Source: Myxococcota bacterium
GTDB lineage: Bacteria > Myxococcota_C > UBA6777
Reading direction: 5' to 3'
Length of the DNA: 43,348 bases
NCBI GenBank assembly: GCA_023150835.1
Contig: JAKLKB010000048.1
Span: 1 to 43,348 of the forward strand
Every line of letters starts with the position of its first letter. The stretch's first letter is position 1. The notes under the pieces are model-generated. The model searched no databases, was not told the DNA's origin, and saw only the letters and a program-made list of their open reading frames with translations. Positions 18,945-41,404 of the stretch are shown in pieces. The position numbers and the translations under genes are program-made.

Positions 18945-19051
18945 TACGATATCCGAGAGATGTATCCACAAAGGAGAGTACGTAGACGCCCGATTGTTGG
19001 GCAGCCACACCTGTTTGCCCCGACCTTTTTACGATCACGCAACGGGCGGAT
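18945..19051 (-). repeat. Family-1 dispersed repeat, copy A
   Basis: Read on the minus strand, this element begins TCCGCCCGTTGCGTGATCGT six bases after the TetR stop and ends CTCGGATATCGTA. It shares length and most bases with the copies at 31669-31775 and 41299-41404. A conserved GGGCA...TGCCC pairing and an alternative GCCC...GGGC pairing share the same central arm. Confidence 0.9.
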
Positions 19052-19057
19052 CTCGTC

Positions 19058-19651
19058 TTATTTGCTACGACGCAAGAGTTGTTCGAGGCCGAGCCAGAGC
19101 GTTTGGCTGTAGGCTTCGTCTTGGGGAGTGGATGGAGCCTCTTGGATCTGATCGGTGTAGCCACGCAAGACGCCAAGAAAGGACCACAAAAAGACTTCGA
19201 GTGGGAGGTCGTTTGCGATCATTCGCTGTTCTTGGGCTTTTTGGAGCGATGAAAAAACAAATTGGAACATCTGGCCGATGCAAAAAGAGATGCGTGCGGC
19301 GCTTTCTTCGGAAGCGATTTGAAGAAGTTGTACGTTAAACGCAAGGCTTTTGATCTCGGGATGCTTGCGGATTAGCGCGATCCGTTGAAAGAAAAAGGCG
19401 CGAAGCGCTTCAAGAGGATGTTCTTCTTTTGGAGGAAAGTCTGCCATGACCAGTTCTTCAAAACGTACGAGCGCTGCGGCGATGATATCTTGTTTGTCCC
19501 GAAAGTGCCGAAACAATGTCGCTTCCGAAACATCGATACTCTTGGCGATCAAGGCGGTGGTCAGACGATGGAAGCCTTCTTGTCCTGCAAGCCGCAACAC
19601 TGCTTCGGCGATCTCCTCTCGTCGTTCTTCGGCACTCAAGCGTTGGGTCAT
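19058..19651 (-). CDS. TetR-family transcriptional regulator
   Basis: A 197-residue TetR/AcrR-type repressor. The N-terminal DNA-binding domain is clear: EEIAEAVLRLAGQEGFHRLT, then the helix-turn-helix TTALIAKSIDVSEATLFRHF followed by RDKQDII. The C-terminal ligand-binding part is helical and not assignable to a ligand. GAGGAT precedes the ATG at 19651. A near-perfect 20-base palindrome lies just upstream, so autoregulation is likely. A matching half-site lies upstream of the cytochrome gene. The stop is followed after 6 bases by family-1 repeat copy A in the same orientation. Confidence 0.94.
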   Translation of the reverse strand: MTQRLSAEERREEIAEAVLRLAGQEGFHRLTTALIAKSIDVSEATLFRHFRDKQDIIAAALVRFEELVMADFPPKEEHPLEALRAFFFQRIALIRKHPEIKSLAFNVQLLQIASEESAARISFCIGQMFQFVFSSLQKAQEQRMIANDLPLEVFLWSFLGVLRGYTDQIQEAPSTPQDEAYSQTLWLGLEQLLRRSK

Positions 19652-19665
19652 CGGCGTATCCTCAT

Positions 19666-19685
19666 AAGTGAGTATTTACTTACTT
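19666..19685. promoter_or_regulatory. Palindromic operator upstream of the TetR gene
   Basis: AAGTGAGTATTTACTTACTT is an inverted repeat of two 9-base arms around TT with one mismatched pair. It begins 15 bases upstream of the TetR start codon. Size, symmetry and position are typical of a TetR autoregulatory operator. Confidence 0.72.
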
Positions 19686-19768
19686 GTTTAAAGTAATAGA
19701 CGAGACAAAGAGAGATGTCAAGAGAAAATTGAGGGGATGGGGAGGATTGGGCTTGGTGGGGTATCGTC

Positions 19769-20470
19769 TTAATCGGAGTCGAGTTGGGAGAAGCGTTCGA
19801 TATCTTCGATGGTGCCGATGCAGAGGAGGATGTCGCGATCTTGGATCACGTCGGTGGGGGCGGGGTTGTGGTCGACGTATTCGTGGAAGTCTTCGGAGCC
19901 ATCGGGATGGAAGCGTCGTGTGCGTCGTTTGATGCCGAGGATATTGAGTCCGTAGAGTTTGCGGATGTTGGCTTGTGCGAGGGTTTTTCCGTTAAAGCGT
20001 CGGGGGGCGGTGATCTCGGAGAGGGAGTAGCCGTCGCTGGAGAGTTGGATCAAGTCGAGGATGGCGGGTCGTGCGATGCGTTGGGCCATACGTGCAGCGA
20101 GATCGCTTTCGGGGTTAACGACTTCGTGAGCGCCGACGAGACGGAGGATTTGGGCGTGGAGATCGCTGGTTGCGCGGGCGATGATATGAGGGACTTTGAG
20201 GCGTGCGATCAAGGCGGTGGTGAGGATGGAACTTTCGACGGACTCGGCTCCGATGGTGATGACGACGGCATCGAGGTCTTGGATGGAAAGGGAGCGAAGG
20301 TTGTCTTCGTCGGTGGCATCGGTGCAGACGGCGCTGGTGACGGAGAGTTTGATGCGTTCGACGATCTTGGGATCGCGGTCGATGGCGACCACTTCGGCCC
20401 CCCGATCATGGAGTGCTTGGGCGACGTGAAAGCCAAAACGTCCGAGACCGATCACAGCAAAGCGGCGCAA
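19769..20470 (-). CDS. Trk/Ktr potassium uptake regulatory subunit (RCK domain)
   Basis: A 233-residue cytoplasmic protein of the TrkA/KtrA type that gates the membrane subunit encoded just upstream. The N-terminal RCK-N Rossmann domain shows VIGLGRFGFHVAQALHDRG, a GxGxxG nucleotide-binding loop, and AIDRDP. The C-terminal RCK-C part follows a linker near residue 140. The single-RCK length (about 220-235) fits KtrA rather than the tandem E. coli TrkA. TTG at 20470 is the start: AGGAG lies 6 bases upstream and the frame opens directly into the Rossmann strand. It lies 102 bases downstream of the channel gene on the same strand, as an operon. Confidence 0.93.
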   Translation of the reverse strand: MRRFAVIGLGRFGFHVAQALHDRGAEVVAIDRDPKIVERIKLSVTSAVCTDATDEDNLRSLSIQDLDAVVITIGAESVESSILTTALIARLKVPHIIARATSDLHAQILRLVGAHEVVNPESDLAARMAQRIARPAILDLIQLSSDGYSLSEITAPRRFNGKTLAQANIRKLYGLNILGIKRRTRRFHPDGSEDFHEYVDHNPAPTDVIQDRDILLCIGTIEDIERFSQLDSD

Positions 20471-20572
20471 GGTGGACTCCTAATTGAAAGAGGGTGATCG
20501 ATGCGGAGAATCCATATCGATCGAGCGTGTTGTGGAAAACGTCGGATGTTTCGAGATCGAGCGTGTCACTTT

Positions 20573-22309
20573 CTATCCGACGTAGATCCGTTCTTCGGGG
20601 TATTGGTAGCGGCCAGCGGTTGGCGTGGAAGAGATGGCAAAGGCCACGGTGAGGGGGCCAAGGCGACCGAGGAACATCAGGAGAACGATGCAGATCTGGC
20701 CGAAAGAATCGAGGGCCGAAGTGGTGGCGACGCCTGCTTTGTTGGCGGTGGTGAGTCCGACGGTACCGATCGCGGAGGTGACTTCAAACAGGACGAAAGA
20801 AAAGGGCAGTTTTTGTGTTGCGAGCAACAAAAAGGAGAAGACAAAAAAGATCACGGTAAAGACGGTGATCATGCCCGTTGCGCGGGCGAGGTTGTCTCGG
20901 GTGAGTGTGCGTCCAAAGATCTCGACATCTTCGCGTCCGCGCAGGATGCTACGGAGCATCAGGCCAAGGATCGCGATGGTGTTGAGTTTGATTCCGCCGG
21001 CTGTTCCGCCCGATGCGCCGCCCACAAACATGGCGAACATCATCAGCAACAGAGTGGCGGGCGTGAGCAGGGAAAAGTCGACGGTGTTGAATCCAGCGGT
21101 GCGCAGCGTGACCGATTGAAAGAGTGCGGCTTGGATCTTGTAGAAAAAGCCCAAGGAACCGAGGCTATGGCGGTATTCGAACGCGAAGAAAAGCACCGCG
21201 ACGCTGATGACAAAGAAAGCTTGGAGCAGAAAGACGATCTTGGTATTGAGGGGCAGGGTGCGGACAAAAAGTCGGAGTGCCCAACGATAGCCTTGTTGTT
21301 TGGCGCGTTTGCCGATCTGTTGCAGGCGCTCTTTCTCAAAAAGGCTGGCCAGTACAGGAAAGCCCATCCCACCGAGCAAGATCAAGCCCATGACGGTAAA
21401 GTTGACGAGGACATCTTTTTGATAGGGGACGAGGCTTTGGGAGTGTAGGGCGAATCCAGCGTTGCAGAATGCAGAGATCGCATGAAAGATGGCTTGATAG
21501 GCCGTTTGCCACGGATCGACGGTGGGTTTGTGCCACGCGATAAAAAGCAAAAGCGCGCCGATGCCTTCGATGATCACGGTGGAGAAGACGATAAAGCGCA
21601 AAAGCCCAAGGAGTTTGTTGCTTTGTTGTTCATCAAGGATCGCGGAGATCGCGTTGCGAGAGCGCAGTCCAAGGCGCTGGCCCATAAACCACAGCAGAAA
21701 GCTGGAAAAGGTGATGATCCCAAGACCACCGATCTGGATCATCACCAAGATCACACACTGACCAAAGAAGGTGAAATCAGCCCCTGTGTCTTTGACCGCG
21801 AGGCCCGTCACGCAAGTTGCGGAAGTTGCGGTGAATAGGGCCGTTAGGAAGGTGTGGGGCTTGTTCGGGCTAGAGGGCGGCAGCATCAACAGAAACGTGC
21901 CAAGCAGGATCAAACAAGCAAAGCTCAGAACCAGCAACAACGCAGGCCGCTGCAAGAGTCCATCCCATAGATGCCGAAAATACTTGTCGTGGTAGATGTT
22001 TTCGCCAAAAATGATCGCGCCAAAGCAAAGCAACAGCCCGATAAAAGCGAAACTTTGGAGCAAGAGCGGTGGCCCGATCAAGAACAGAACGATCTCGATG
22101 GCGTGGCGTCGAAACCATGCGAAAGTTTGGTAGTTTCGTTCAAACAAACGCAACAGCACGATGCCTGCGAGTCCATAAGAAACAAACACAAGAGACAAGG
22201 ACAGGCCGACCAACCACCAAGGGGGACGAGGCGCACGCATGGTTTCAAACAGGGGCAGGAGGCTACAAAGCCACAATATACCTTGCCAGCGTTCAACAGT
22301 CTTCGGCAT
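20573..22309 (-). CDS. Trk/Ktr potassium transporter membrane subunit
   Basis: A 578-residue integral membrane protein of the TrkH/KtrB superfamily, importing K+ (possibly with Na+ or H+). All four pore loops are recognisable: TSATCVTGLAV, ISAFCNAGFAL, VTLRTAGFNTVD and TSAIGTVGLTT, each with the single filter glycine. The glycine-rich segment VGGASGGTAGGIK is also typical. At 578 residues it is longer than KtrB (about 450); the extra length is N-terminal and adds about three hydrophobic segments before the core. ATG at 22309 has AGGA 7 bases upstream. It is transcribed ahead of the RCK subunit gene. Confidence 0.95.
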   Translation of the reverse strand: MPKTVERWQGILWLCSLLPLFETMRAPRPPWWLVGLSLSLVFVSYGLAGIVLLRLFERNYQTFAWFRRHAIEIVLFLIGPPLLLQSFAFIGLLLCFGAIIFGENIYHDKYFRHLWDGLLQRPALLLVLSFACLILLGTFLLMLPPSSPNKPHTFLTALFTATSATCVTGLAVKDTGADFTFFGQCVILVMIQIGGLGIITFSSFLLWFMGQRLGLRSRNAISAILDEQQSNKLLGLLRFIVFSTVIIEGIGALLLFIAWHKPTVDPWQTAYQAIFHAISAFCNAGFALHSQSLVPYQKDVLVNFTVMGLILLGGMGFPVLASLFEKERLQQIGKRAKQQGYRWALRLFVRTLPLNTKIVFLLQAFFVISVAVLFFAFEYRHSLGSLGFFYKIQAALFQSVTLRTAGFNTVDFSLLTPATLLLMMFAMFVGGASGGTAGGIKLNTIAILGLMLRSILRGREDVEIFGRTLTRDNLARATGMITVFTVIFFVFSFLLLATQKLPFSFVLFEVTSAIGTVGLTTANKAGVATTSALDSFGQICIVLLMFLGRLGPLTVAFAISSTPTAGRYQYPEERIYVG

Positions 22310-22794
22310 GGAGCGTTCCTTTGTGCGCGGGTCGATCGGCTTCTCGGCACGTTTTCGGTACGTTTCGATCAGCCCGAAGCAGGCAGCCCACGCACACGAT
22401 CAAAAGGGGCGGTGTGGGGATATAGCGGAGTGCTCTTGTTTGTGCAAGAGGGGTACGCGGAGAGACCAAAAGGCTTTGGGCAGTACAGCTTTTTTGCGAC
22501 AATTCTTTTTAGATAGGACTTACGCAGTTGCCAAAAAAACCGCGTTTGCAACACCTCAAGCGAGAGGGTCGTTGTCTTGAAAAACCGTCGATCTCTTCGC
22601 CAATACGGGATCAAGGGGGCGGCGGCCCCTTGCGGGGTGTGGGGTTCCAACCCCACAAAATAAACCCAAAGGCATCAGTCTTCTCTCGAATGCAGCGAAG
22701 TCCTTGACTCTTTTCGTGATCCCACCTAAAAGGGCGCAAAGATGCGTGGTGCCGTTCGCGTGTCGGAGGGATTCAATAAAGTAGGGAAGGTCTC
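22310..22794. other. Divergent intergenic region with a repeat
   Basis: These 485 bases separate the potassium channel gene (minus) from the Cys-rich lipoprotein gene (plus). The only structured part is family-2 repeat copy 4 at 22530-22662. TAGGACTTACGCA at 22514-22526, next to that repeat, resembles termini of some insertion sequences and MITEs but has no partner. Short open frames here lack ribosome binding sites and family-like sequence. Confidence 0.55.
22530..22662 (-). repeat. Family-2 dispersed repeat, copy 4
   Basis: Read on the minus strand it starts TTTTGTGGGGTTGGAACCCC, continues through CCCCTTGATCCCGTATTGGC and CGCTTGAGG, and ends ACGCGGTTTTTTT. It aligns end to end with the three plus-strand copies but is more diverged in its second half. 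Confidence 0.78.
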
Positions 22795-24468
22795 ATGTCA
22801 GAAAGAATACGATGGAAACAAGGTCTCGTGCGTGTTGCTTATGTGGTGCTGTTGGGGGCGATGTTTTTTGCGGGCGGCTGTAGCTGCAATGAAAAGCCGG
22901 GGATAGGCAACGGATGCCAGTCATGCCCGATTCCTGAGCGTTGCGTGCAAGAGGGCAGCAAGTTTGAGTGCGTGGCTTGCGTGACGGATCAGCATTGTCG
23001 TGATGGTGGAAGCTCGACGAAAAAGTGTTTGAAAAATCGCTGCATCTGTGGGGGGGATACAGACTGTCCGACGGGACAACGATGCGCTGGAGAACGCGGA
23101 TGCCTCGAATGTATCGATGACAAAGATTGTGCGGCATTTGCAGAAAAGCCCGTTTGTGCGCCAGATGGCCGTTGTGCAGCTTGTCGTTTTGGCTCAACAC
23201 GCGCTTGTGTGCCCGAAGGCAAAGAAGACACCGTCTGTCAAAAGGGGGTGCAAAAGTGCGGAGCAAACCTATTGTGGGGCTTTTGTGAAGGCTGGAAAGA
23301 TTGCAACAAATGCGCAAGTCCTGCGGTTTGCCTTGCGGGGGATATCCGCTGCTCGACAGGCCCCGAAGAGATGCCCGGGAAATACTACGAGTGCGTGCTT
23401 GACAAAGACGACTGCCCGACGTGGAGCAGCGCGGTCAAAAGTTGCCCCGGTACAGACAAATGCCAAAACAACAAATGTATCCCCGAACGTTGTAAAGCCG
23501 CAGAATGTCCGCTCGGAAACAAACGCTGCGGCAGTGATGGAAAAAGCCTCGAAACCTGCGGGCGCAACCAAGACGGTTGTATCGTCTGGCTCGCTCCCGA
23601 AGCTTGCCCAAACAACAACGCTTGCGAAAACAACCGGTGCAAGGACGAAAATTGCAAACCTGCAAACGAGACTTGCAACGGAAAAGACGACAACTGCGAC
23701 GGAAAGATCGACGAGACCTTTGCGGATCTAGGCCAAACCTGCGAAGTCGGCAAGGGCGTTTGCAAACAAACTGGGAAGAAAGTATGCACCGCAGACGGCC
23801 AATCCACCGAGTGTAACGCAAAGGCAGCCACAGGTGGACCCGAGCAATGTAACGGCCAAGACGATGATTGCGACGGGCAGATCGACAACGGGGCGACGTG
23901 CCCCGACGGAAAACCCTGCAACAACGGCGTTTGTGGAACACCAGAGCCGGGATGTGCAGATGGCACGCGTGAACTGTTTACGAATATGGCGAAGTATCCG
24001 ACCATTGCGGGATGTGCGGGATTTTATCGCGGAGAGAGCTTGCGTTTGGCTCGCCAAGGCCAAAACTGCGGTGCGACCTCTAGCCAAGAATGCAAGGCTG
24101 CCGAAGATCTTTGCGCTGCGGGCTGGCATATCTGTATGAAAAACGGCGACCCAAGCGATATGAAGAATCGTGTCACAGGGCCGGATTGTGCGAGCGATGG
24201 GGCAGGTCTGTTTGTTGCGGCATCGAGCCACTGCGTCACTTCGCAGCCTGCTTGCTCCTATGGGGCGAGCGGATTACCTTGCACCCAAGGCGGCCCTTGT
24301 TCCGAGCCGATCTGCTGCGGAAAAGACTGTCAGTTTGGTCTTTGCAAAGATGCTGTGTGGGCCAACGAAACGCGCTGCGCACGCCCGCAAACTTTTATCG
24401 GTTGTGGGAACGCCAACTCCTTTCATGGAACCCCGCTGATTACAGGCGTTCTTTGCTGCAAAGACTGA
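22795..24468 (+). CDS. Cys-rich lipoprotein with MopE-type metal-binding motifs
   Basis: A 557-residue secreted lipoprotein: hydrophobic AYVVLLGAMFFAGGC is a good lipobox, with Cys29 as the lipidated residue. The mature part is very rich in Cys in spaced pairs (DTDCPTGQRCAGERGCLEC and similar) that should form disulfides. Two copies of the MopE-like putative metal-binding motif are clear: CNGKDDNCDGKIDE and CNGQDDDCDGQIDNG. The C-terminal 160 residues form a different Cys-containing domain (CAAGWHICMKNG; VLCCKD). Such proteins are common on myxobacterial-type cell surfaces; the binding partner is unknown. A purine-rich GGGAAGG precedes the ATG. It is the first gene of the plus-strand block that continues with the pseudokinase. 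Confidence 0.9.
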   Translation: MSERIRWKQGLVRVAYVVLLGAMFFAGGCSCNEKPGIGNGCQSCPIPERCVQEGSKFECVACVTDQHCRDGGSSTKKCLKNRCICGGDTDCPTGQRCAGERGCLECIDDKDCAAFAEKPVCAPDGRCAACRFGSTRACVPEGKEDTVCQKGVQKCGANLLWGFCEGWKDCNKCASPAVCLAGDIRCSTGPEEMPGKYYECVLDKDDCPTWSSAVKSCPGTDKCQNNKCIPERCKAAECPLGNKRCGSDGKSLETCGRNQDGCIVWLAPEACPNNNACENNRCKDENCKPANETCNGKDDNCDGKIDETFADLGQTCEVGKGVCKQTGKKVCTADGQSTECNAKAATGGPEQCNGQDDDCDGQIDNGATCPDGKPCNNGVCGTPEPGCADGTRELFTNMAKYPTIAGCAGFYRGESLRLARQGQNCGATSSQECKAAEDLCAAGWHICMKNGDPSDMKNRVTGPDCASDGAGLFVAASSHCVTSQPACSYGASGLPCTQGGPCSEPICCGKDCQFGLCKDAVWANETRCARPQTFIGCGNANSFHGTPLITGVLCCKD

Positions 24469-24479
24469 GCGCCCCACGC

Positions 24480-24548
24480 CGCATCGAGGTACACACGGAG
24501 CCAACCCAAAGCTCGTCGCATCGAGGTACACCTTGAGCCTGCCCAAAG
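24480..24548 (+). repeat. Direct duplication spanning the pseudokinase start
   Basis: Positions 24480-24511 recur at 24517-24548 with 27 of 32 bases identical (CGCATCGAGGTACAC is perfect in both). The period is 37 bases. The second copy contains the GAGG ribosome binding site and TTG start of the pseudokinase gene; the first contains a spare GAGG. Confidence 0.82.
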
Positions 24549-25933
24549 ATATCGGCCCGTATCGGATCGAGCGCATCGCAAGTGAAAGTTGGGCAGGCCC
24601 CATGTTTGGGGGGATCGAACTCGCGACACAACAGCCCATCTTCTGTCTTTCCCTTCACGCCGACCAATTTTCTTGGCTCTCGCCCGCTCATTGGAGCCAG
24701 TTTCGCCAAAGCCTCGAAGGATCGCGCCTTCTCAATCATCCCAACATCCTTGCGTCTTACGATATCTTCCATCACACCGAGCGTCATCTGCGGATCTTTT
24801 ACAAAGCCCCCAAGCCCTCTACCCGTAGGCCCGAAACACTACATGAACTCTTGCTTGCGCGAACCCAAGAGCGCCTTACAGAACGCGATGCACTCGCAGC
24901 TTTCGAGCAGATCGTTGTCGCCCTTGCAAGCATCCACGTACAAGGCCATCGCATGGGCCTTCTTCCTCCCGATCTGTTTTGGCTCGATTGGAGCAAACAA
25001 CCCCTGCGTCTGCGATTGTCGCATTACGGCTTGCAATCTCTTTTGCGCGGTGCGCGTTGGCACGAGCTCCCATACGCCGACCATCTGCTCCATTACGTCG
25101 CTCCCGATCTTTGTCGTGACCCCGATCAACCCATCCAGATCCACCATGATCTTTACGCTGCGGGCGCTTTGCTTTGGCGCATCTTGACCGGAAAGCCCCT
25201 TCTTTCCGCCCAACAACAATCCTTCTCCCCCGAAGACCTCTTTTGGCACGAAGATCTCCCTCCTCTTCAGCCTGTCACACTTCAACTCTTTGAACGCCTT
25301 TTGCATCCACTCCCCAAAAAACGCTACCAAAACAGCCACACTCTTTCTGCTTGGCTCGCGGGTCAAGATTGGGTCCAGCTTCCCAGCCCACACGATCCCT
25401 CTCAACACGAGCTACATCGGGCTGCAGGCACTCTTTCTTATGCCAGTATCCCGATCGAATCACTCTCCCATCTGCCCCCTCACCCCGTCCATCCGCCCAA
25501 ACAAGAGATCCCTGCGATCCAGCCCGCTGTTTGGGATCTCTTTCTTTCCTCTGAAAAACAACAACACCGCACCGAAGATCTTCTCTCTCCTTTTCCACAA
25601 GTCCAGATCTCCCTCCAAGATCCGATCTCATCCAACGAAACGCCTGCAACCGATCATCTGATGACGCCTTTTACTCCGCCTGAACCACAACACACCCCCT
25701 TTACTCCGCCTTCTTTACAGACCATCCATCCCCCCACAGAATCGCTTGACAACCATCTTGATGCTTTTCTTTCCCACCACGATATCCCCTCGCAGATCCC
25801 CGAAGCATGGGAACAAGAAGCTCTCGCTTACGATCGCACGCTGGAACGACGGCCTCGGCGATCTCCCTTTCGTTTTCTTTGGTGGCTGCTCGCTGTCTTG
25901 CTTGGATGGCTGCTCTGGCGTGCTTGTTTTTAA
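24533..25933 (+). CDS. Tail-anchored pseudokinase
   Basis: A 466-residue protein whose residues about 10-290 follow the protein-kinase pattern but lack catalytic residues. The glycine loop is lost (ASESWAGPMFGG). The strand with the ATP-binding Lys reads IFCLSLHADQ. The catalytic loop reads HRMGLLPPDLFWLD, without the Asp, Lys and Asn of HRDxKxxN. DFG is replaced by HYG. Later features survive: YVAPDL at the APE position, DLYAAGALLWRILTGKPL, and the C-lobe Arg region KKRYQNSHTLSAWL. A Pro-rich linker ends in a transmembrane helix (FLWWLLAVLLGWLLW), giving a cytoplasmic, tail-anchored binding protein. TTG at 24533 has GAGGT 5 bases upstream. It is flanked by envelope-protein genes on the same strand. 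Confidence 0.85.
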   Translation: MSLPKDIGPYRIERIASESWAGPMFGGIELATQQPIFCLSLHADQFSWLSPAHWSQFRQSLEGSRLLNHPNILASYDIFHHTERHLRIFYKAPKPSTRRPETLHELLLARTQERLTERDALAAFEQIVVALASIHVQGHRMGLLPPDLFWLDWSKQPLRLRLSHYGLQSLLRGARWHELPYADHLLHYVAPDLCRDPDQPIQIHHDLYAAGALLWRILTGKPLLSAQQQSFSPEDLFWHEDLPPLQPVTLQLFERLLHPLPKKRYQNSHTLSAWLAGQDWVQLPSPHDPSQHELHRAAGTLSYASIPIESLSHLPPHPVHPPKQEIPAIQPAVWDLFLSSEKQQHRTEDLLSPFPQVQISLQDPISSNETPATDHLMTPFTPPEPQHTPFTPPSLQTIHPPTESLDNHLDAFLSHHDIPSQIPEAWEQEALAYDRTLERRPRRSPFRFLWWLLAVLLGWLLWRACF

Positions 25934-26122
25934 AACGCCCGACTCTCCGCTGTTTTCTCTCCACACCAAAACGCCCTATCTACCGCCTTTTTTTCACTTC
26001 GATATCCCTGAACCTGCGCTGCCCTCACCACGACAAATTGCCATCTCGCAACGGCTGTGGCATAGTCGCCCTCACGACGTCGCCCTGAAACGCTTGCTTT
26101 TGTTCTCCACGAGAGGTTGCGT

Positions 26123-28651
26123 ATGTCTCAGTTCAAAGCACTTCTTCTCTTTCTCATCGCCGCTGGACTTGCCGCGCTGCTTTGGTTGCAAGAACAGCCT
26201 TCCGCCTTGCAAAAACAACAACTCGAACAGCTTCAATCGTTGCTGAAAAAACATACCGAATTTCACCGACAGATCGGCGATTTTTACGGACAGCTTCGTG
26301 CGAACTTGAAACGCACCGCAGCACATCCAAGCATCCTTGGCCCTCTCGGCATCGCCGCAGAGTCCGATCGGCGCAGCCGCGATCTGGAACGCGCCCATCA
26401 ATCCATCCAAAAAACCTTCCCCTTCAAAAAAAGGTACGCGCAAGGCCAGCGTCTTTACGTCTTTACCAAAGATTACCGCCTCTTGATGCGCTCCGATCGC
26501 GACGTCGAATTAGAAGACGCAGCCCATCCCCTCAGTCAACTTCCCTTCGTCCAACTCGCAGAACAAGATCCTGCCGGGACGTGGAAGATCGACGGGCAAG
26601 ATGTGTTTGTGATCAGTCTCCCTGTTCGCAAAGACAAGCAAGTCCTCGGGATCTTGATGCACACGATCCCGATCAACGCTGATATCTTCTTTGACTTGGG
26701 CTTTACAGCCTTGAAACGCAAAGAAACACCTCTGTTTTTCTTCGGAGATTCCGGCATCCTCGCCAACGGCACACCCACCGAGTCCGCAGGAGCGCTGCGC
26801 AATTGGTTTACTGGCGAACAATCCCGCCTCCTTGCCGATCTGAAAGCCGCTCCGCTCTATCAACCCAAAGGCCCCACCCATCAAGATCGAACCATCCCTT
26901 ACGCGCTTAGCCGTTTTCCCGGCGAGATCAACCACCCGCAGATCGGGTATGTGCTCTTTGTTCCACCCAACCCAACACTCTCCAACCAAAGCAAGTTCTT
27001 TGGCCTTGATCTGATCCTTTTGCTCGGCCTCTCTGTGGGCTTTGCGTTTCTCCTTTGGATCTGGCTGAGTCTCGGTCTCTTTCTTCAAAAACGCCGTCTA
27101 CTCGAAGCTTTCCACTACGTCGCCAACAACCCCAGCCAGCCTGTCAAAGAAGCCCGATTCCCCAGCGCCTTTCGTCGTGGAGCCGAAAGCCTACAATCAC
27201 TTCTTGAAAAACATCAACGCCTTCAAAAGGAGCTGCAACAAGCCCAAGCTGCCGCTCAACAAGCTCAATCGACTGCTCAACAAGCTCAAGCCGCCGCTCA
27301 ACAAGCTCAAGCCGCCGCTCAACAAGCTCAAGCCGCCGCTCAACAAGCCCAACCTGCCGCTCAAGCCGCCCCCCTCAAGGAAAAGGGTATCCCACAGCCT
27401 TTTTCGAACAACGCTCCTCCCAAGATTTCTCCCGTTGTACCCGGCCAAGTCAGCTTTGCACCCACCCTCTCCCAAAACCCCGCTGCATCGGCCCACATCC
27501 CAGTCACAACTCAAAACCCCGCTGCATCGGTCCCCATCTCAGCCACAACTCAAAACCCCGCTGCATCGGCCCCCATCTCAGCCACAACTCAAAACCCCGC
27601 TGCATCGGTCCCCATCTCAGCCACAACTCAAAACCCCGCTGCATCGGCTCCCATCTCAGCCACAACTCAAAACCCCGCTGCATCGGCACCCGTCCCAGCC
27701 ACAACTCAAAACCCCGCTGCATCGGCACCCATCTCAGCCACAACTCAAAGCCCCGCTGCATCGGCACCCATCTCAGTCGCAACTCAAAACCCCGCTGCAT
27801 CGGCTCCCATCCCCGTTTCATCGGCCCAAATATCCGCTACTTCGACTGTGTCAGCACCCGAATCTGTGTCGAAGCAAAGCGTCCCCTCGATCTCTTCGCA
27901 AGGTTCATCATCGCCCGCGATGCAGACCGCTGCTTCTTCCAAAAAGGCTGAACCTGTTGGCTTGTCTGTCGCGCCAAACGGTGCGGCGGCTGCGGTGGTT
28001 TCGCAATCTTCTGAACTGACGCTGAATCCAGCCTCCAAAGTCGCCGCCCAAAGCGCACTTGATAGTCTTTCATTCATGGACACTTCGTTAATGGATGCCA
28101 CCTCTTCGCTTGATGGCGCTCTTGATTCAGTCTTTCCCGGTCTTCAAGACAACTTTTTGCCGATGACACCGCTCTCTCCTACACCCAAGGCCGCGCCCAT
28201 CGAGGCCCCCAAAGCCGCGCCCATCGAGGCCCCCAAAGCCGATAGCACCATCCAATTGAATATGCGATCTGCGGATGCTGGCGCGACGATGGCTTACAGC
28301 AGCATGACCGAAGAAGAAGCCCAACACGTCTTGAAAAACATTCGCGGACCCCAACCCGAAGCGGAGGCTGCAGGCCCACAACACCCGCTTACACCCGCCC
28401 CATCCACCGAAGACACCGCACAAGGCATCATCCCCAACGACGACGTAGCGCTTCAAAAGATCTTTCAGTCCTATCTTGATCTACGCAAACGATGTGGCGA
28501 ATCTATCGAGGGTTTGGCTCTGGATAGTTTTTCCGCCAAGCTTCAAAAACAACGCCAAGGCATCATCCAACAGTTTGGATGCAAAGACGTTCGCTTTTAT
28601 GTCTACGAAAAATCCGGGAAAGCCGCCCTCAAAGCAACGCCTGTCCAATAG
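26123..28651 (+). CDS. Membrane sensor-like protein with MXAN_5187-type C-terminus
   Basis: An 842-residue protein. A transmembrane helix at about 5-20 is followed by a predicted periplasmic sensor-like region (about 25-290; VFTKDYRLLMRSD, DVFVISLPVRKDKQVLGILM) that resembles a Cache-type domain, then a second transmembrane helix at about 296-322. The cytoplasmic part starts with a coiled coil of AQQAQAA heptads (about 370-414), continues through nine 13-residue repeats (TQNPAASAPISAT, about 450-566) and ends in a conserved-looking domain (LDLRKRCGESIEGLALDSF, VRFYVYEKSGKAALKATPV) that matches my recollection of the MXAN_5187 C-terminal domain. Topology resembles chemoreceptors, but there is no signalling hairpin. 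ATG at 26123 has GAGG 6 bases upstream. Family-2 repeat copy 2 begins a few bases after the stop. Confidence 0.8.
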   Translation: MSQFKALLLFLIAAGLAALLWLQEQPSALQKQQLEQLQSLLKKHTEFHRQIGDFYGQLRANLKRTAAHPSILGPLGIAAESDRRSRDLERAHQSIQKTFPFKKRYAQGQRLYVFTKDYRLLMRSDRDVELEDAAHPLSQLPFVQLAEQDPAGTWKIDGQDVFVISLPVRKDKQVLGILMHTIPINADIFFDLGFTALKRKETPLFFFGDSGILANGTPTESAGALRNWFTGEQSRLLADLKAAPLYQPKGPTHQDRTIPYALSRFPGEINHPQIGYVLFVPPNPTLSNQSKFFGLDLILLLGLSVGFAFLLWIWLSLGLFLQKRRLLEAFHYVANNPSQPVKEARFPSAFRRGAESLQSLLEKHQRLQKELQQAQAAAQQAQSTAQQAQAAAQQAQAAAQQAQAAAQQAQPAAQAAPLKEKGIPQPFSNNAPPKISPVVPGQVSFAPTLSQNPAASAHIPVTTQNPAASVPISATTQNPAASAPISATTQNPAASVPISATTQNPAASAPISATTQNPAASAPVPATTQNPAASAPISATTQSPAASAPISVATQNPAASAPIPVSSAQISATSTVSAPESVSKQSVPSISSQGSSSPAMQTAASSKKAEPVGLSVAPNGAAAAVVSQSSELTLNPASKVAAQSALDSLSFMDTSLMDATSSLDGALDSVFPGLQDNFLPMTPLSPTPKAAPIEAPKAAPIEAPKADSTIQLNMRSADAGATMAYSSMTEEEAQHVLKNIRGPQPEAEAAGPQHPLTPAPSTEDTAQGIIPNDDVALQKIFQSYLDLRKRCGESIEGLALDSFSAKLQKQRQGIIQQFGCKDVRFYVYEKSGKAALKATPVQ
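27239..27366 (+). repeat. 21-base tandem repeat encoding a coiled coil
   Basis: About six units of GCTCAACAAGCTCAAGCCGC-type sequence (21 bases each) encode successive AQQAQAA heptads. Three central units are identical at the base level, which indicates recent slippage or amplification. Confidence 0.88.
27470..27820 (+). repeat. 39-base tandem repeat, nine copies
   Basis: Nine contiguous 39-base units encode 13-residue blocks (TQNPAASAPISAT and close variants). The core CAAAACCCCGCTGCATCGG is nearly invariant. The array keeps the frame throughout and lies in the cytoplasmic linker of the sensor-like protein. Confidence 0.93.
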
Positions 28652-28654
28652 TTC

Positions 28655-28776
28655 GGGTGGAGCGTTGCCCCAAAACCCACAAGGGAGCTTTGCCCCCTTG
28701 ACCCCGTGCCGACGGGGCGAGCAGACGTTTTCCACACAAACCACACTGCCGTTTGAAGTGCCGAGAACACGGGGGA
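28655..28776 (+). repeat. Family-2 dispersed repeat, copy 2
   Basis: This copy begins just after the sensor gene stop and carries CCCCCTTGACCCCGTG, the local hairpin CCCCGT/ACGGGG, GTTTTCCACACA, CCGTTTGAAG and AGAACACGGGG. CCCCGTG near its middle and CACGGGG at its end are inverted repeats. Unlike copies 1 and 3 it lacks the final T-run. It contains the likely GTG start of the next gene at 28758. Confidence 0.87.
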
Positions 28777-31215: not shown

Positions 31216-31662
31216 ATGACCCGCACAAAATGGCTCGTTGTCGTCAGTCTCGTCGCTGTTGCCGCGATGATCGGTCTTGTTGTGACATACGCTTCGCAAG
31301 TGTCGATGCTTTACCTTAAAACCGATGAAGTTTTCGCACGTCTCGAAAAGTCCGCAACAACCGCACACAAAGGACCAGAAAGTCTCGTCGGAACCTATCT
31401 CCGTATACACGGGCATCTTAAAGCCAAAAGCGCTCGCCGCTACCAAGGCCGCCTTGATTACGAATTCTTTATCCAAGGCCAAAGTGGCCGCGCACTCAAA
31501 GTCCGCTACCAAGGCATCCTTCCGGATACTTTTCGCGATCATGCCGAACTGGTCATCGAAGGAAAACTCGTTCAGCCTGACTTGTTTCAAGCCTATTCGG
31601 TCTTTGCCAAGTGTCCGACCAAGTACAAAGAAGAAAAAGAACAAAAGAAACAAACCAGTTAA
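31216..31662 (+). CDS. ccmE: Cytochrome c maturation haem chaperone CcmE (CxxxY variant)
   Basis: A 148-residue periplasmic haem chaperone anchored by an N-terminal helix (residues 6-24). CcmE receives haem and passes it to CcmF for attachment to apocytochromes. The OB-fold core is visible (GTYLRIHGHLKA; KVRYQGILPDTFRDHAELVIEG). The haem-binding motif reads VFAKCPTKYKEE: Cys133 replaces the usual His, with Tyr137 conserved, giving CxxxY rather than HxxxY. A Cys-type CcmE is known from Desulfovibrio and some archaea. AAAGGAG lies 8 bases upstream of ATG 31216; an in-frame upstream start at 31174 is not needed. Family-1 repeat copy B begins 6 bases after the stop and a terminator-like hairpin follows before ccmF. 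Confidence 0.92.
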   Translation: MTRTKWLVVVSLVAVAAMIGLVVTYASQVSMLYLKTDEVFARLEKSATTAHKGPESLVGTYLRIHGHLKAKSARRYQGRLDYEFFIQGQSGRALKVRYQGILPDTFRDHAELVIEGKLVQPDLFQAYSVFAKCPTKYKEEKEQKKQTS

Positions 31663-31775: not shown

Positions 31776-31823
31776 TAAGCCCCTTTTACCTGCGTCTGAG
31801 GCTCCGTTGAACGATCCAGCCCT

Positions 31824-35152: not shown

Positions 35153-35983
35153 TACGGTTAAATCGAACGGTAGGAGCTGTTCTAGAGCGCCGCAGGCTTT
35201 TTGATGGATCTGGCAGATCCGCGACTCGCTGAGTTGGAACATCTCGCCGATCTCGCGCAGCGTTAATTCTTCAAAATAATACAAGTACAAGATCATACGT
35301 TGCCGCTCGGGTAGCTTTTCTAACGCTTCCATCACTTTCTTTTTGATCTCAAGCTGTTGGACGTATCCTTGTGGATCTTGGCGGCTGCGCGAAGAAAATG
35401 TCCCTGTTGTACTTGGACGCTCCGTTGCAAAGTCCAACGCTTCCATCTCCGTAAAGACAATAGGCTGGAACTGTTCGCGCATCTCTTCCACTTCCGCAAC
35501 AGAACACTCCATCGATGCGGCGACCTCTTCGTTTGTTGGATTGCGCCCCAAACGGACGCGCAGATGTGACTCGATGCGCTGGAATACCCGTGCTTTTCGA
35601 CGCAATCCCCTCGATAACACATCCGCTCGACGCAACTCATCTAAGATCGCTCCGCGTATGCGGATCTCTGCGTATTGGGTAAAAGCCAGCGCACCCGGCT
35701 CATATCGTTCCAACGCATCGATCAGCCCTACTACCCCAAGCGCGACCATATCGCCTTCTTCCATCAACGGCGGAAAACGGTAATTCAAACGACTAACGAC
35801 CCGCCGAACCAGCGGCATATAACGAATCACAGCTTCGTTTCGCTCGCTCTTGTCGGGCGTTTCCCCCATGTAGGCGTCTTGTTGCAAGCCGGCCTCTTTT
35901 TGCGTCCGATCTCCGCGCTCTTCGGGCACAGATGGGGCCTCCGCTTGATGTGGCGAAACCATTTCCTTCTTGTTGATGGGCAT
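35138..35983 (-). CDS. RNA polymerase sigma factor, FliA/WhiG type
   Basis: A 281-residue alternative sigma-70 factor of group 3. Region 2 shows RYMPLVRRVVSRLNYRFPP, then GDMVALGVVGLIDALERYEP and FTQYAEIRIRGAILDELRRAD. Region 3 is RLGRNPTNEEVAASM. Region 4 is LPERQRMILYLYYFEELTLR then EIGEMFQLSESRICQIHQKA. These are typical of FliA, WhiG and SigD. A roughly 45-residue charged N-terminal extension precedes region 2. ATG at 35983 is preferred because AGGAG lies 8 bases upstream; an ATG at 36010 is also in frame. No flagellar gene is in the window, so it may direct a different regulon. A family-2 repeat lies upstream. Confidence 0.93.
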   Translation of the reverse strand: MPINKKEMVSPHQAEAPSVPEERGDRTQKEAGLQQDAYMGETPDKSERNEAVIRYMPLVRRVVSRLNYRFPPLMEEGDMVALGVVGLIDALERYEPGALAFTQYAEIRIRGAILDELRRADVLSRGLRRKARVFQRIESHLRVRLGRNPTNEEVAASMECSVAEVEEMREQFQPIVFTEMEALDFATERPSTTGTFSSRSRQDPQGYVQQLEIKKKVMEALEKLPERQRMILYLYYFEELTLREIGEMFQLSESRICQIHQKACGALEQLLPFDLTVLSEH

Positions 35984-36510
35984 ACAACTCGCTCCTCGCG
36001 CAAACAACATAGGACAACACCATCCGAAACTCCGTCCAGTTTCGAACCGAGAGAAGAAAGACGCATCTGGGGTTTTTTGTGGGGGTTTGCCCCACGCCCC
36101 GCCATAGGCTGTTGCCTCTTGACCCCGTGCTTGGCGAAAATCTCACTGTTTTCCACACAGGCCAATTTGTCACTTGAGCAGGCACGAACACGGGGTTTTT
36201 TAGCATCTGCGTCAATCTAAAGAGAAAAGATATTACAAACATCAGGAATAAGATACTGTTGGATACAGGAACAAAAAGAAAAATTTGAAACCTCTTCTAG
36301 AGGAGATTTTTCACCTTTTGTCGAAACTTCGCAAGCGAAACGCCACGAAATTGAGGCACCGCACGAATGTCTCCACCAAACGCAGCAGCACAAGCCTCGT
36401 GTGCTTGTTCCGACGCCGCAGCGAAAAAATCGACGCGCACAAGAGAACACGCCAAAATGAGACTATACTTGTGATGCTGTTTTCGACAAGGCACCCAAAA
36501 GGAGAACCCC
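35984..36510. other. Divergent region between sigma and nucleotidyltransferase genes
   Basis: No gene is visible in these 527 bases. Family-2 repeat copy 3 occupies 36072-36201. Beyond it, a small hairpin CCTCT TCT AGAGG lies near 36291-36303, and TATACT at 36464-36469 could be a -10 element for the nucleotidyltransferase gene, though no matching -35 is seen. The segment 36310-36450 shows nothing recognisable. Confidence 0.5.
36072..36201 (+). repeat. Family-2 dispersed repeat, copy 3
   Basis: This is the best-preserved copy. GTGGGGGTTTGCCCCAC starts it, CTTGACCCCGTG lies in the middle, then GTTTTCCACACA and CACTTGAGC, and AACACGGGGTTTTTT ends it. ACCCCGTG and CACGGGGT are perfect inverted repeats about 60 bases apart, and the second is followed by a T-run, as in an intrinsic terminator reading rightwards. 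Confidence 0.9.
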
Positions 36511-37518
36511 GTGATCCGTAAAGCCATGATCCTCGCTGCTGGTCTTGGGACGCGCTTGCGCCCGTTGACGTACCACCTCCCCAAGCCGTTGGTTCCTGTC
36601 GGCTTGCGATCGATGATCGCGCACCATCTCGATCAACTCGCTCGGCTTGGTATCCAAGAAGTGATGATCAATACCCACCATCTTGCAGAACACATCCCGC
36701 AAACTCTTGGGGATGGCGCAGCGTGGGGCCTTCAACTTCACTATTCCCACGAATCACCCGATATCTTGGGGACAGGAGGGGGACTGGCTCAGGTGCGCAC
36801 CTTCTTTGAACAAGAAGACGCTTTTTTGTTGCTGAACGGCGATATCTTGCACAATCTTGATCTCCTTGCGCTCGCCAAAGCCCACGCCGAAGCGCACGCG
36901 GCAGTCACGCTCGCACTTCGAGCGCACCCCGGCGATCCAGCGATGGGATGGATCGGGACCGATGAGGCTTTGCGGGTGTGGCGTGTTCCGGACATGGATG
37001 CGGTGCATCCGTTGCAAAAACAGATGTTTACTGGACTTTCGATCCTCACCCCGTCCGTGTTTTCGCACCTTCCCGCCCAAGGGTATAGTTGTATCCTGCG
37101 TTCTGGCGTGCGGGGGTTGCTAGAGCAAGGCGCGCACATCCAAGGCCACCTCGATGATCGCAGCGTCTGGGTGGATATCGGCACTCCCGCTCATTACCTC
37201 CAAGCCAACCTTGATGCGCTCGTGGATCCACGCTTTCCTTGCCCGATGGATGCACTGATCCGCCAAGGCACACAAGGCCCATTTTGGCTTTCTTCCCACC
37301 ACCAAGCCGATCTCAAAACGCTTACAGGCGGATACTCCTTGATCGGAGAACAGGCTTCCGTCGGCCCGCACTGTCACCTCGAACGCGTCGTCGTTTGGCC
37401 CCATGCACGCATCCCACCCCATTCGCGTTATCTTGATGGTATCGCGTATCTCGATCAATTTCTTTCTTTGCCTGCCGAAGGGCTTCGTGCGCCAAAACCC
37501 CTTCATCCCACCCCATAA
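36511..37518 (+). CDS. Sugar-phosphate nucleotidyltransferase
   Basis: A 335-residue enzyme that makes a nucleotide-sugar from NTP and a sugar 1-phosphate. The N-terminal motif MILAAGLGTRLRPLT and PKPLVPVG are the nucleotide and phosphate loops. NGDIL carries the metal-binding Asp, and VDIGTPAHYLQAN closes the catalytic domain at about residue 235. This part resembles MurU and mannose-1-phosphate guanylyltransferases. The C-terminal 100 residues (GGYSLIGEQASVGPHCHLER) look like a short left-handed beta-helix fragment. GTG at 36511 has AAAGGAG 6 bases upstream. The substrate is not predictable. The 3' end is duplicated downstream. Confidence 0.9.
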   Translation: MIRKAMILAAGLGTRLRPLTYHLPKPLVPVGLRSMIAHHLDQLARLGIQEVMINTHHLAEHIPQTLGDGAAWGLQLHYSHESPDILGTGGGLAQVRTFFEQEDAFLLLNGDILHNLDLLALAKAHAEAHAAVTLALRAHPGDPAMGWIGTDEALRVWRVPDMDAVHPLQKQMFTGLSILTPSVFSHLPAQGYSCILRSGVRGLLEQGAHIQGHLDDRSVWVDIGTPAHYLQANLDALVDPRFPCPMDALIRQGTQGPFWLSSHHQADLKTLTGGYSLIGEQASVGPHCHLERVVVWPHARIPPHSRYLDGIAYLDQFLSLPAEGLRAPKPLHPTP

Positions 37519-37597
37519 ACGCCCGAAAACAAAGGAGCAGGCGCAACATCGCGGCTCGTTGGGGCGTCCATTCCATCCCATAAACGCCCGTAAACGA
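37501..37597 (+). repeat. Direct duplication of the nucleotidyltransferase gene 3' end
   Basis: Positions 37501-37532 contain the last codons and stop and recur at 37566-37597 with about 25 of 32 bases identical (core CCATAAACGCCCG). The period is 65 bases, close to the 66-base period at the HEAT kinase gene end. Confidence 0.8.
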
Positions 37598-37641
37598 CGA
37601 GGTTTCGTGTGTTGCGTGTTGTATATCGCTCGCAGAAGCCT

Positions 37642-38418
37642 TCAAGAAACACTCTCTACACGCGCCAGAACGACTGTGATGTTGTCGTTCCCGCCATTTT
37701 TATTCGCAGTTTCGATCAATATCTTCGCGGCTTCGGATAGATCGGCTTCATGTTCGACGACGATCTTGCACATCTCCTGATCTTCGACCAAGCCCGATAA
37801 ACCATCCGAACACAACAGATAGATATCCCCTTTTTGAAGCTCTTCTCGGCAGATATCGACTTGCACGATCTCTTTCATCCCCAACGCCCGAACGATCACG
37901 TTTTTGTGTGGAAAATTGTCGATCTCTGATTGGGTCAACTTTTTGATCTTCATGTAGTCGTTCAACAGCGAGTGATCTTCTGTGATCTGTTTCAGCTTTT
38001 TGTCTCGGATGCGGTACACACGACTGTCTCCGACGTGGCCGATGTATGCGTAGCGATCCGTACAAAAGAGCGAAACCACCGTTGTCCCCATCCCCTTGAG
38101 TCGCAGATCGGCTTGAGCGCGCCGAAAGATCTGCTTGTTGGCGAGTTTCACCCCGTTGCTCAAGCGATTTTCTTCGTAAGAAAGCGTCTTGTCCATTTTG
38201 TACGGCCAAGTCTTGTCTTGATCTTCTCGCGTCTCTTTGAAAAACTGTGTCAACGTCTCAACCGCCATCCCGCTGGCGACCTCACCCGAGGCATGGCCCC
38301 CCATACCGTCCGCAACGATGTAAAGCCTATTTTCATGATCCAACAACAAAGCGTCTTCGTTGTGTCCACGTTTCCGCCCCACGTCGGTGCGGCCTATGAC
38401 TTCAAGTTTCAAGGGCAT
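37642..38418 (-). CDS. PP2C-family Ser/Thr protein phosphatase
   Basis: A 258-residue metal-dependent phosphatase that removes phosphate from Ser/Thr residues, the natural counterpart of the kinases in this window. All hallmark motifs are present: RGHNEDALLL, VADGMGGHASGEVAS, GMGTTVV, GHVGDSRVYRI, ITEDHSLL, LLCSDGLSGLV and GGNDNITVVL. These supply the Asp residues for the two-metal centre. No transmembrane segment is seen, so it is cytoplasmic. ATG at 38418 has GGGAG 6 bases upstream; six extra in-frame codons further upstream are unlikely. It is convergent with the nucleotidyltransferase gene and divergent from the DUF4388-J gene. Confidence 0.96.
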   Translation of the reverse strand: MPLKLEVIGRTDVGRKRGHNEDALLLDHENRLYIVADGMGGHASGEVASGMAVETLTQFFKETREDQDKTWPYKMDKTLSYEENRLSNGVKLANKQIFRRAQADLRLKGMGTTVVSLFCTDRYAYIGHVGDSRVYRIRDKKLKQITEDHSLLNDYMKIKKLTQSEIDNFPHKNVIVRALGMKEIVQVDICREELQKGDIYLLCSDGLSGLVEDQEMCKIVVEHEADLSEAAKILIETANKNGGNDNITVVLARVESVS

Positions 38419-38650
38419 ACAACACTCCCTTCGCAAAGAAGACCTCTCAGATCGTTCAAATGACCCATTATACCCTTGCTCTCCACAAACTCAAGCCTAT
38501 CGTCGTGTGTGGCCTGTTCTACAAGGGGTTTGATGACGCGGCTTCTTCACCAAGACAACACCCTTGATACGATCGCTTGCAGCGAAACCTGCTTTTTGTG
38601 TATCCTGAGGGCGTTCTTCGTACAAGCCAAAAAAACAGGGATAGCGAAAG

Positions 38651-41236
38651 ATGGCATTACAGTTCGACTTTGCGCCTGATGGTGGCGTACAATTCAGTGG
38701 AAATTTTCAGGATCTTTCTTTTGGAAAGCTTCTGCTTTGGATCGCTCGGGAAACGTACTCTGGCGAACTCAGCTTGACTTCTCCCGAAACGAAGCCGCAA
38801 TGGCTTTTTTTCAAAGACGGCCAGCCTGTCGGTGTGCGTGGCGGTCCCGGGGAGCATTATCTCGGCTGGTTGCTTGTTGAATCTGGAAAGATCGACGAAG
38901 CCACCTGCATGGCTTCCTTACAAGAGATGGCGCAACAAAAGAAACTCCAAGGACAGGTGTTGAAGGCGATGGGCGTTCTTCATGATGCCGATCTGCAACA
39001 AGCCCTACAGTTACAACTTCAACGCAAGCTCATCCGCATCTTTACGTTGCGCCAAGCACGCTTTGTCTTTCGCAGCCAATCTCGCGTCTCCGTCCAAGAC
39101 GTCCCGCCCGGCAGGCTCAATCTTTACTCACTTATCGGGCATGGATTACGACAGCTAAATGATACACAAGCCTTGCGAGAAGTCTTGCGCGAGGCGGAAC
39201 CACAAGCCTTTCGCCTCAAAGAAGAAGCGCAATTCCCGACACCCCTCGAAGAGATGCCGCTCGACGAAGATCAGATCAATGCGATCGCCCTGCTTTACGA
39301 TTGGACGGATATCACACATTTTCTTCAAACGGGCTACCTCGAGTCTCTTCCTGCCTTGGTTTTGCTCTCCATTTTTTATGTTTGTGGCTTCTTCGAAGTC
39401 GGTGCAAAAGAGCTGATCCGCGCAAAAAGTCTGTCTTTTGATGATCTCGCTTCTCCCGATTTTTCGGCCCATCCGATGTTTGCAGAGCCTCCTCTCTCGT
39501 CCAATCCGAGCTACACCCCCGCCTCAAGCTACACCCCCGCTTCTTCACCCCATACCATAGCACAGCCACCTGTCGCCAAACCTTCCGTCCCAAGGCCGAG
39601 TACTTATCAACATGCCTCGACCTTGCGGCCCCCCAATGTTCCAAGCACCTCGACAACACGCCCTACCCAGATAAGCAACGAAAATTCGGCAAGTACTCCT
39701 CCCGCTCGACCTTCTCCTCTGGCTGCAACTCCCACCACTCGGCCTGCTGCGCCGAAAACAACCTACAGCACCCCCGCTGCTTCGCCTTCCACAAGCAAAC
39801 CCGCAGCGCAACGTCCCCCCCATGTTCCGCTCGAACCTTCTCTCTCTCCCATTCCATCGGTCTCTGCGCCTGTTTCGACAACCACACGCCCCGTTGCTTC
39901 GACAAACCTTCCGCCTCGCCCTGCTGCCCCCGCCGCTTCGGTTCGTCCTTCTGCTCCGCTCGGATCGACATCTTCCCCGCCAATCCAGCCTGCTGCGACA
40001 GTCGTCTCGCCTGCATCCCCACCTGCTCCGCCCACCCGACCCGCTGTTTCCTCCCCTGTATCAGCTACTACGGCTTCGCCTTATCGGCCCGCTGCAACGG
40101 TTGTTTCGTCCTCAAACCCACCTGCGCCACCCGCTCGACCTGCTGCTCCGTCTTCTGTCTCAGCGATGGCTCCGTCCGCTGCTTCGCCTGCACCCGCTGC
40201 TCCGCCTGCGCCCGCTGTTCCGCCTTCTGTTCCGCCTGCACCCGCTGCTCCGCCTTCTGTATCCCCAAAAAACACGCCGACCACAGAGCCATCGCAGCGA
40301 AGCGCAACAGTCAATGCTCCAAAAACACCCGATAACTCGGCTTCTAAACCCACTTCGGAGGCTCGTAACGATCAACAAACCACAAAGATCCGCCCAAGCA
40401 AAGCCAGCGAGATCGATGTGTTTATTGATGAATCCCAACTCACACCCGAAGATCTCGAACTCAAGCACATCATCGAAGCCAAACTGCAACAAGCCGCCGA
40501 AGGAGCCAACTTTTACGAACTTCTTGATGTCAGTCGTACCGCTGACACCAAGGATATCCGTGCTTCTTATCGCAAACTTAGTCGTACTTTTCACCCTGAC
40601 CGCGTTGCAGGAAGTCCTCTGGAGCCTTTGCGCAAAAAATTAGACAGCTTTTTTGCTCAACTCAACGAGGCCCACCAGATCCTCACACGAAAAACCACAC
40701 GAGACGACTACGACCGCAACCTCAAAACCCCCAGAAAACAAGCACAGCACGTCGAAAATAGCGTAAAAGCCGAAGAGATGTATCGCATGGCGACGGTTCA
40801 GATCCGACGAAAGGACTTCAAAGGAGCGCTTGAAAATCTCAAGTGGGTTTGTCAGATATCTCCTGATACTGGGGATTATGAAGCAGACACGTTGTGGTGC
40901 GAGTACCATCTATCCCCCCAAAAAGCCAACGTTTGGAAAGAAACCATCCAAAAGATCGAAAAGACCCTTGAACACGAGGCCGAACCTGATCGCGTACACT
41001 TTTATGTGGGCGAGATCTACCGAGAACAAAAACAAAACAAAGAAGCGATGGAGGCTTTTGAAAAATATCTCGCTACAGCGCCTTACTCTCAAAAGTCTGA
41101 TGAAGTCCGTCAACAATTGCGGATCCTCCAACACGAGATCAAAAAACAACACGACGCGGCCATCGCAGAACGCCAAAAAGCCAAAGAAGCCAAAGAAGCC
41201 GCCAAGAAAGGCGGATGGGGATTTGGGCGAAAGTGA
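38651..41236 (+). CDS. DUF4388 - J-domain - TPR fusion protein
   Basis: An 861-residue cytoplasmic protein. Residues about 12-150 look like DUF4388 (PATAN-type), found in deltaproteobacterial and cyanobacterial regulators: FSGNFQDLSFGKLLLWIARE, SGELSLTS, WLFFKDGQPV. A second helical region runs to about 265. Residues about 280-590 are a low-complexity Pro/Ala/Ser/Thr linker. A J domain follows at about 617-690 with intact HPD at 648-650 (FYELLDVSR, KLSRTFHPDR), so it should stimulate a DnaK-type chaperone. The C-terminal part is TPR-like (MYRMATVQIRRKDFKGALE; VGEIYREQKQNKEAMEAFEK). A purine-rich stretch precedes ATG 38651. Antisense and alternate frames over the linker are artefacts of its composition. 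Confidence 0.88.
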   Translation: MALQFDFAPDGGVQFSGNFQDLSFGKLLLWIARETYSGELSLTSPETKPQWLFFKDGQPVGVRGGPGEHYLGWLLVESGKIDEATCMASLQEMAQQKKLQGQVLKAMGVLHDADLQQALQLQLQRKLIRIFTLRQARFVFRSQSRVSVQDVPPGRLNLYSLIGHGLRQLNDTQALREVLREAEPQAFRLKEEAQFPTPLEEMPLDEDQINAIALLYDWTDITHFLQTGYLESLPALVLLSIFYVCGFFEVGAKELIRAKSLSFDDLASPDFSAHPMFAEPPLSSNPSYTPASSYTPASSPHTIAQPPVAKPSVPRPSTYQHASTLRPPNVPSTSTTRPTQISNENSASTPPARPSPLAATPTTRPAAPKTTYSTPAASPSTSKPAAQRPPHVPLEPSLSPIPSVSAPVSTTTRPVASTNLPPRPAAPAASVRPSAPLGSTSSPPIQPAATVVSPASPPAPPTRPAVSSPVSATTASPYRPAATVVSSSNPPAPPARPAAPSSVSAMAPSAASPAPAAPPAPAVPPSVPPAPAAPPSVSPKNTPTTEPSQRSATVNAPKTPDNSASKPTSEARNDQQTTKIRPSKASEIDVFIDESQLTPEDLELKHIIEAKLQQAAEGANFYELLDVSRTADTKDIRASYRKLSRTFHPDRVAGSPLEPLRKKLDSFFAQLNEAHQILTRKTTRDDYDRNLKTPRKQAQHVENSVKAEEMYRMATVQIRRKDFKGALENLKWVCQISPDTGDYEADTLWCEYHLSPQKANVWKETIQKIEKTLEHEAEPDRVHFYVGEIYREQKQNKEAMEAFEKYLATAPYSQKSDEVRQQLRILQHEIKKQHDAAIAERQKAKEAKEAAKKGGWGFGRK

Positions 41237-41298
41237 GGCGCTTTTGTCCGCTGTGGTCGTGTTGTTTGTCGGGAGGGGTGTCTGTGATCGTGAGCTTC

Positions 41299-41404
41299 TA
41301 CGATATCCGAGCGATCTGTGATCGAAGGCAAGCGCGAAGACGCCCTGTGCTTGGGCAGCCACAGGGGCTGCCTCTACATTTTTACGATCACACAACGGGC
41401 GGAT
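41299..41404 (-). repeat. Family-1 dispersed repeat, copy C
   Basis: Read on the minus strand it begins TCCGCCCGTTGTGTGATCGT and ends CTCGGATATCGTA. It is one base shorter than copies A and B, and its GGCAGCC/GGCTGCC hairpin is the strongest of the three. The CPBP gene terminates inside it: its last codons and TAG lie within the first 30 bases of the element. Confidence 0.86.

Follow-up and report, generated by a model that had tools for sequence, protein, structure and literature searches.

A 113-bp repeat that recurs at gene ends in this Myxococcota genome is very probably a MITE, a non-autonomous DNA transposon spread in trans, whose gene-end pattern results from its target and from selection. 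The element carries no genes and is bounded by terminal inverted repeats (TIRs), TACGANATCCG...CGGATNTCGTA, of 11 bp each. Conservation reaches 93% in the first 11 and last 11 columns, compared with 83% in the interior. Its immediate flanks are TNA on both sides, with all four middle bases represented. A conserved open reading frame through the element was ruled out, as lengths differ by single bases, and the repeat is non-coding. TIRs combined with a TNA duplication are what is expected when a DNA transposon inserts at a staggered cut of 3 bp. These two features and the lack of coding identify the element as a MITE, and its short length, high copy number and lack of a transposase gene are likewise those of this class. 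Although its kind is already known, the family is new: no description was found in the literature searched, a scope that left most subscription journals outside.

The window, the whole 43,348-nt stretch of DNA analyzed here, gave three matches in a profile search and no fourth copy. The copies and their flanking triplets are as follows.

18945..19057, minus strand: MITE copy 1, 113 bp, TIRs GACGAGATCCG and CGGATATCGTA, profile score 107 bits
19058..19060, minus strand: TAA stop of the TetR gene (19058-19651), also the TNA target triplet to the left of copy 1
18942..18944, minus strand: TGA, the right TNA triplet of copy 1, differing from the left triplet TAA
31663..31775, plus strand: MITE copy 2, 113 bp, TIRs TACGAAATCCG and CGGATATCGTA
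31660..31662, plus strand: TAA stop of ccmE (31216-31662), also the left-hand duplicate of the copy 2 target
31776..31778, plus strand: TAA, the right-hand duplicate of the copy 2 target, included in the list of reconstructed targets
41299..41410, minus strand: MITE copy 3, 112 bp, TIRs GACAAAATCCG and CGGATATCGTA, profile score 100 bits
41411..41413, minus strand: TCA, the TNA triplet to the left of copy 3; on the right, 41296-41298 is GAA, a decayed triplet
41374..41376, minus strand: TAG within copy 3, now terminating the Rce1-like/CPBP ORF (41374-41985)

The initial annotation had described three 107-base copies. Their sites and strands are correct, but each copy extends 6 bases further at its 5' end, and it is the outer terminal inverted repeat that had been left out. 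Two copies had been noted to start 6 bases past a stop codon, and the TetR and ccmE stops do lie 6 bases ahead of TCCGCCC; at full length, the elements adjoin these TAA stops, which are themselves the target-site triplets. The overlap of the third copy with the end of the CPBP gene is borne out by the PF02517 ORF, which terminates inside copy 3. By Pfam, the genes beside the copies encode TetR (PF00440), CcmE (PF03100) and Rce1-like/CPBP (PF02517) proteins.

The target duplication is evident from comparison of the two flanking triplets. TNA flanks both ends in 93 copies, and the two triplets are identical in 69 of these, against a shuffled mean of 24.2 (sd 4.1, max 39); a first, smaller sample gave 46 of 62, with 15.6 expected. 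TNA is retained on both sides in only 93 of 174 two-ended copies. The target preference is symmetric about the triplet and favors G at the third base on its left and C at the third base on its right, a palindrome of roughly G-N-N-T-N-A-N-N-C.

Since TAA and TGA are both TNA, the duplication rebuilds the stop, and a gene survives insertion into either. In 49 of 294 copies, a predicted stop serves as the target triplet (TAA 43, TGA 5, TAG 2); genes were called by a simple in-house codon-pair model that is adequate for stops and approximate for starts. TAA stops are over-used about 3.5-fold relative to all intergenic TNA sites. Motif weighting, an approximate procedure with the motif learned from non-stop insertions only (52 reconstructed targets, positions assumed independent), predicts 39.7 insertions at TAA stops versus the 43 observed, and 10.9 at TGA stops versus 5 (p 0.09). 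A special affinity for stops, considered as an explanation of the overlap, is therefore dispensable: the insertion motif alone predicts the TAA-stop count and happens to suit TAA stop contexts. Selection on stop strength was likewise considered for the preference of TAA over TGA (43:5), which is mostly removed by the weighting. The earlier suggestion of a mobile sequence that targets 3' ends is thus nearly correct. It holds for mobility, given the TIRs, the TNA duplication and a presence/absence difference from a sister species, and stop codons suit the element well, but what it targets is a motif around TNA and not 3' ends as such.

The repeat is abundant and narrowly distributed. The 5' motif has 367 matches at up to two mismatches in the genome (7.56 Mb, 239 contigs) against 0 for a reversed-pattern control, which excludes a chance origin. 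A strand-aware profile identified 344 copies in a 2.31-Mb sample of the 7.56-Mb genome, and 195 of these are full-length. This sample (31% of the genome) comprises contig stretches partly chosen from contigs with known matches, and the genome total of about 1,100 copies extrapolated from it may perhaps be somewhat high. KLAP109, a MAG of the sister species with DNA about 92% identical to that of the present genome, holds about one quarter as many copies, and the other three genomes of the phylum that were searched hold 0 or 1 each. Elsewhere in the public genome collection, the motif matched once in a Streptomyces and once in a Mesorhizobium, and these single matches look like chance. The MITE family is confined to one genus, and its numbers show how heavily a bacterial genome can be loaded with MITEs. 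Some of the assembly breaks may be due to the repeat, as several contigs stop at a copy or close to one.

Within the genome, the count in convergent gene spaces is 84 where 40 is expected, and in divergent spaces 30 where 47 is expected. Only 7 of 254 clusters lie in genes, despite 78% of the motif weight falling there. This distribution looks like the result of selection, the cause that we infer. Between co-directional genes, 62 copies run in the same direction as the gene and 51 in the opposite direction, and relative to the nearer gene of a convergent pair the ratio is 41:42. The consistent agreement with gene direction described in the initial annotation is accordingly a property of the three window copies that does not extend genome-wide. 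An early orientation bias of 44:22 among full copies disappeared after more sequence was added and each tandem array was counted as one.

The same data bear on the proposal that the repeat is a transcribed 3' regulatory element under selection, acting as a terminator, processing site or mRNA stabilizer, with a two-state RNA switch in its central arm. Features consistent with this proposal include strong predicted folding, at about -40 kcal/mol for the consensus and with a mean z of -3 relative to mononucleotide shuffles, together with enrichment of copies downstream of genes and a central arm with two mutually exclusive pairings. However, orientation at 3' ends is unbiased, the enrichment at stops is accounted for by the target motif, and TTTT occurs within 20 nt downstream in just 19 of 219 copies, leaving 200 of 219 without a T-run. 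Changes in stem pairs, counted on the consensus fold of 130 dereplicated copies, are one-sided, with virtually no compensatory pairs. The two exclusive pairings, previously said to persist in all copies, can both be drawn, but neither displays meaningful compensatory change in this set. RNAalifold returned no structure from the 130 dereplicated copies, and Rfam gave no match above the gathering score in the window. Orientation and compensatory change were the checks that had been named for a transcribed element, and both outcomes argue against one. Given near-random orientation at 3' ends, no meaningful compensation and few T-runs, termination or processing by the repeat is contradicted, and we regard the whole proposal, switch included, as highly improbable. 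Adjacency to a stop codon should, as a caution, not be taken as evidence of a transcript-end signal.

Copies between divergent genes are co-directional with the nearer gene in a ratio of 24:6 (p 0.0014), a result that, as one of several tests, is treated as a lead only. The bias counts against a purely parasitic reading, since a purely parasitic element does not predict it.

Comparison with the sister species provides a view of insertion and later change. At one presence/absence site, the KLAP109 copy is flanked by TAA on both sides, while the related unit in the present genome has a single GAATAAGCGAGAGCC and a single TAA; KLAP109 also has a duplicated short unit beside the insertion, which makes the site not perfectly clean. 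The ccmE/ccmF copy is common to both species, with a flank that is 92% identical; the sister contig (L225) matches the last part of window copy 2 and ends inside the copy. The mean identity of random copy pairs is 77%, which indicates that the copies are old. Mixed orientation occurs in only 2 of 58 multi-copy clusters, which argues that arrays arise by tandem duplication and not by repeated insertion. At one insertion site present in both species (L235 and G000:C99 23508-23621), the flanks are closely alike and the interiors belong to different subfamilies, a mismatch that probably reflects gene conversion. A 26-bp tandem array of the MITE core hairpin (CCCCCTGTGGCTGCCMGACAATCGGG) at G000:C7 1210-1522 is apparently an internal expansion of one copy.

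The source of the mobilizing enzyme was sought in the same material. Neither the 31% sample nor the transposase loci yielded an autonomous parent with matching TIRs, and all pairs of TIRs at a spacing of 600-3000 bp and with the same TNA proved to belong to separate MITE copies. Searches for DUF4096 (PF13340) and DDE_Tnp_4 (PF13359) transposases gave no matches, five DDE_Tnp_1 (PF01609) loci are not bounded by the MITE TIRs, and one IS630-like DDE_3 locus has other ends. Mobility in trans is therefore something that we infer. Multicopy IS are often missing from MAGs, and the parent may have been lost, left unbinned, or reside in the remaining 69% of the genome.

Only the TNA duplication hints at an IS1031-type (IS5 family) enzyme, and this identity is a guess. 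A narrower form of the MITE reading, in which the repeat derives specifically from an IS1031-group element, draws on the 5'-TNA-3' target and exclusive 3-bp duplication of that group (PMC12016507), both of which match the MITE, and on a second inverted-repeat family of this genome (ends GAGGGTGTTTGCGAAAAAG) that also lies at TNA, at 9 of 15 ends. Conversely, the MITE TIRs are unlike the published group end (ISLrh GAACCTGTCTAG...; PMC12016507), no DUF4096 or DDE_Tnp_4 transposase turned up, and the five DDE_Tnp_1 loci lack these TIRs as bounds. We consider this derivation possible, if on the doubtful side. The GAGGGTGTTTGCGAAAAAG-ended family occurs at G000:C238 ~23145-23600 (L184), where it contains a broken transposase, and at C201 ~76680; it directly adjoins MITE copies.

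A different origin would be a REP/REPIN-type element spread by a RAYT (Y1) transposase. The layout GTAG-hairpin...hairpin-CTAC is the hallmark of REPINs, and the core of the present element, GTAGGGGCAGCC...GGCTGCCC...CTAC, is well conserved, with a GTAG-type foot and a hairpin. The genome also has one RAYT-like Y1_Tnp gene, next to an expanded MITE copy. The full element, however, has TIRs and a TNA duplication, which are not known outcomes of Y1/RAYT mobilization, and core-only units occur almost exclusively as local tandem expansions in larger copies, not as dispersed singlets. The target duplication argues against spread of the whole element by RAYT, and we judge such an origin very unlikely. 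The RAYT-like Y1 transposase ORF (L176 1450-2214, minus strand; G000:C113 ~53266-54030) itself contains in-frame GTAG-hairpin repeats (GQAQIGQAQ). In a hybrid scheme, a DDE-type MITE would possess a REPIN-like double-hairpin core recognized by the resident RAYT, and copies upstream of divergent genes would be retained preferentially in the sense orientation (24:6), which would imply that some of them were co-opted for 5' regulation as RNA or DNA; this scheme we consider improbable.

The MITE reading suggests a course of events in which a DDE transposase, acting in trans, would cut at TNA and duplicate 3 bases. Where the triplet was a stop codon, the stop would be kept upstream, with the second copy downstream, and the gene would be unharmed. 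Selection would then purge copies within and upstream of genes, while downstream copies would persist, and the impression of a 3'-end element may be the product of this purging elsewhere and survival downstream. Copies were later remodeled locally, by tandem duplication in head-to-tail order, by growth of the central hairpin unit and, probably, by gene conversion. The rebuilding of stops by TNA duplication thus offers a simple, testable route to the build-up of repeats at gene ends that involves no 3'-end function.

Other repeats are also present in the window. A second dispersed repeat of about 134 nt (18694-18815, 28652-28774 and 36074-36195) has 221 matches in the 2.31 Mb and features a GTGGGGC...GCCCCAC hairpin at one end and, at the other, CCCCGTGTT...AACACGGGG followed by T-runs in a terminator-like arrangement; it is somewhat like the SPRITE of pneumococcus. 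In addition, in-frame tandem repeats of 21 nt and 39 nt (QQAQAAA and QNPAASAPISATT units) occupy 27215-27862 within the ORF at 26117-28651.

Among known systems, RUP of Streptococcus pneumoniae, a 107-bp MITE with a significant excess between convergent genes that was taken as a sign of parasitism (PMC3049150), resembles the present element in length, paired TIRs, non-coding nature and convergent-gene excess. RUP targets TA, has TIRs that match IS630-Spn1 (PMC2229807) and is present in about 110 copies, whereas the MITE described here targets TNA, has about 10 times as many copies and has no known parent. The TNA target with its 3-bp duplication, together with the other ends of the IS630-like DDE_3 locus, places the element outside RUP. 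The IS1031 group shares the target and the length of the duplication (PMC12016507), but its elements encode a transposase and have other TIRs, and no member with the TIRs of the MITE was found here. REP/REPIN elements with RAYT share a central unit with GTAG/CTAC at the hairpin feet; in contrast to them, the present element duplicates its target site and bears TIRs on long outer arms, and its cores are not dispersed alone. Correia/NEMIS, ERIC, CIR and YPAL are, like this MITE, imperfect palindromes of <200 bp that are dispersed and mostly intergenic (PMC2229807). The new family differs from them in its TNA target with a palindromic G..C context, its stop-preserving insertion and its very high copy number in a Myxococcota genome.
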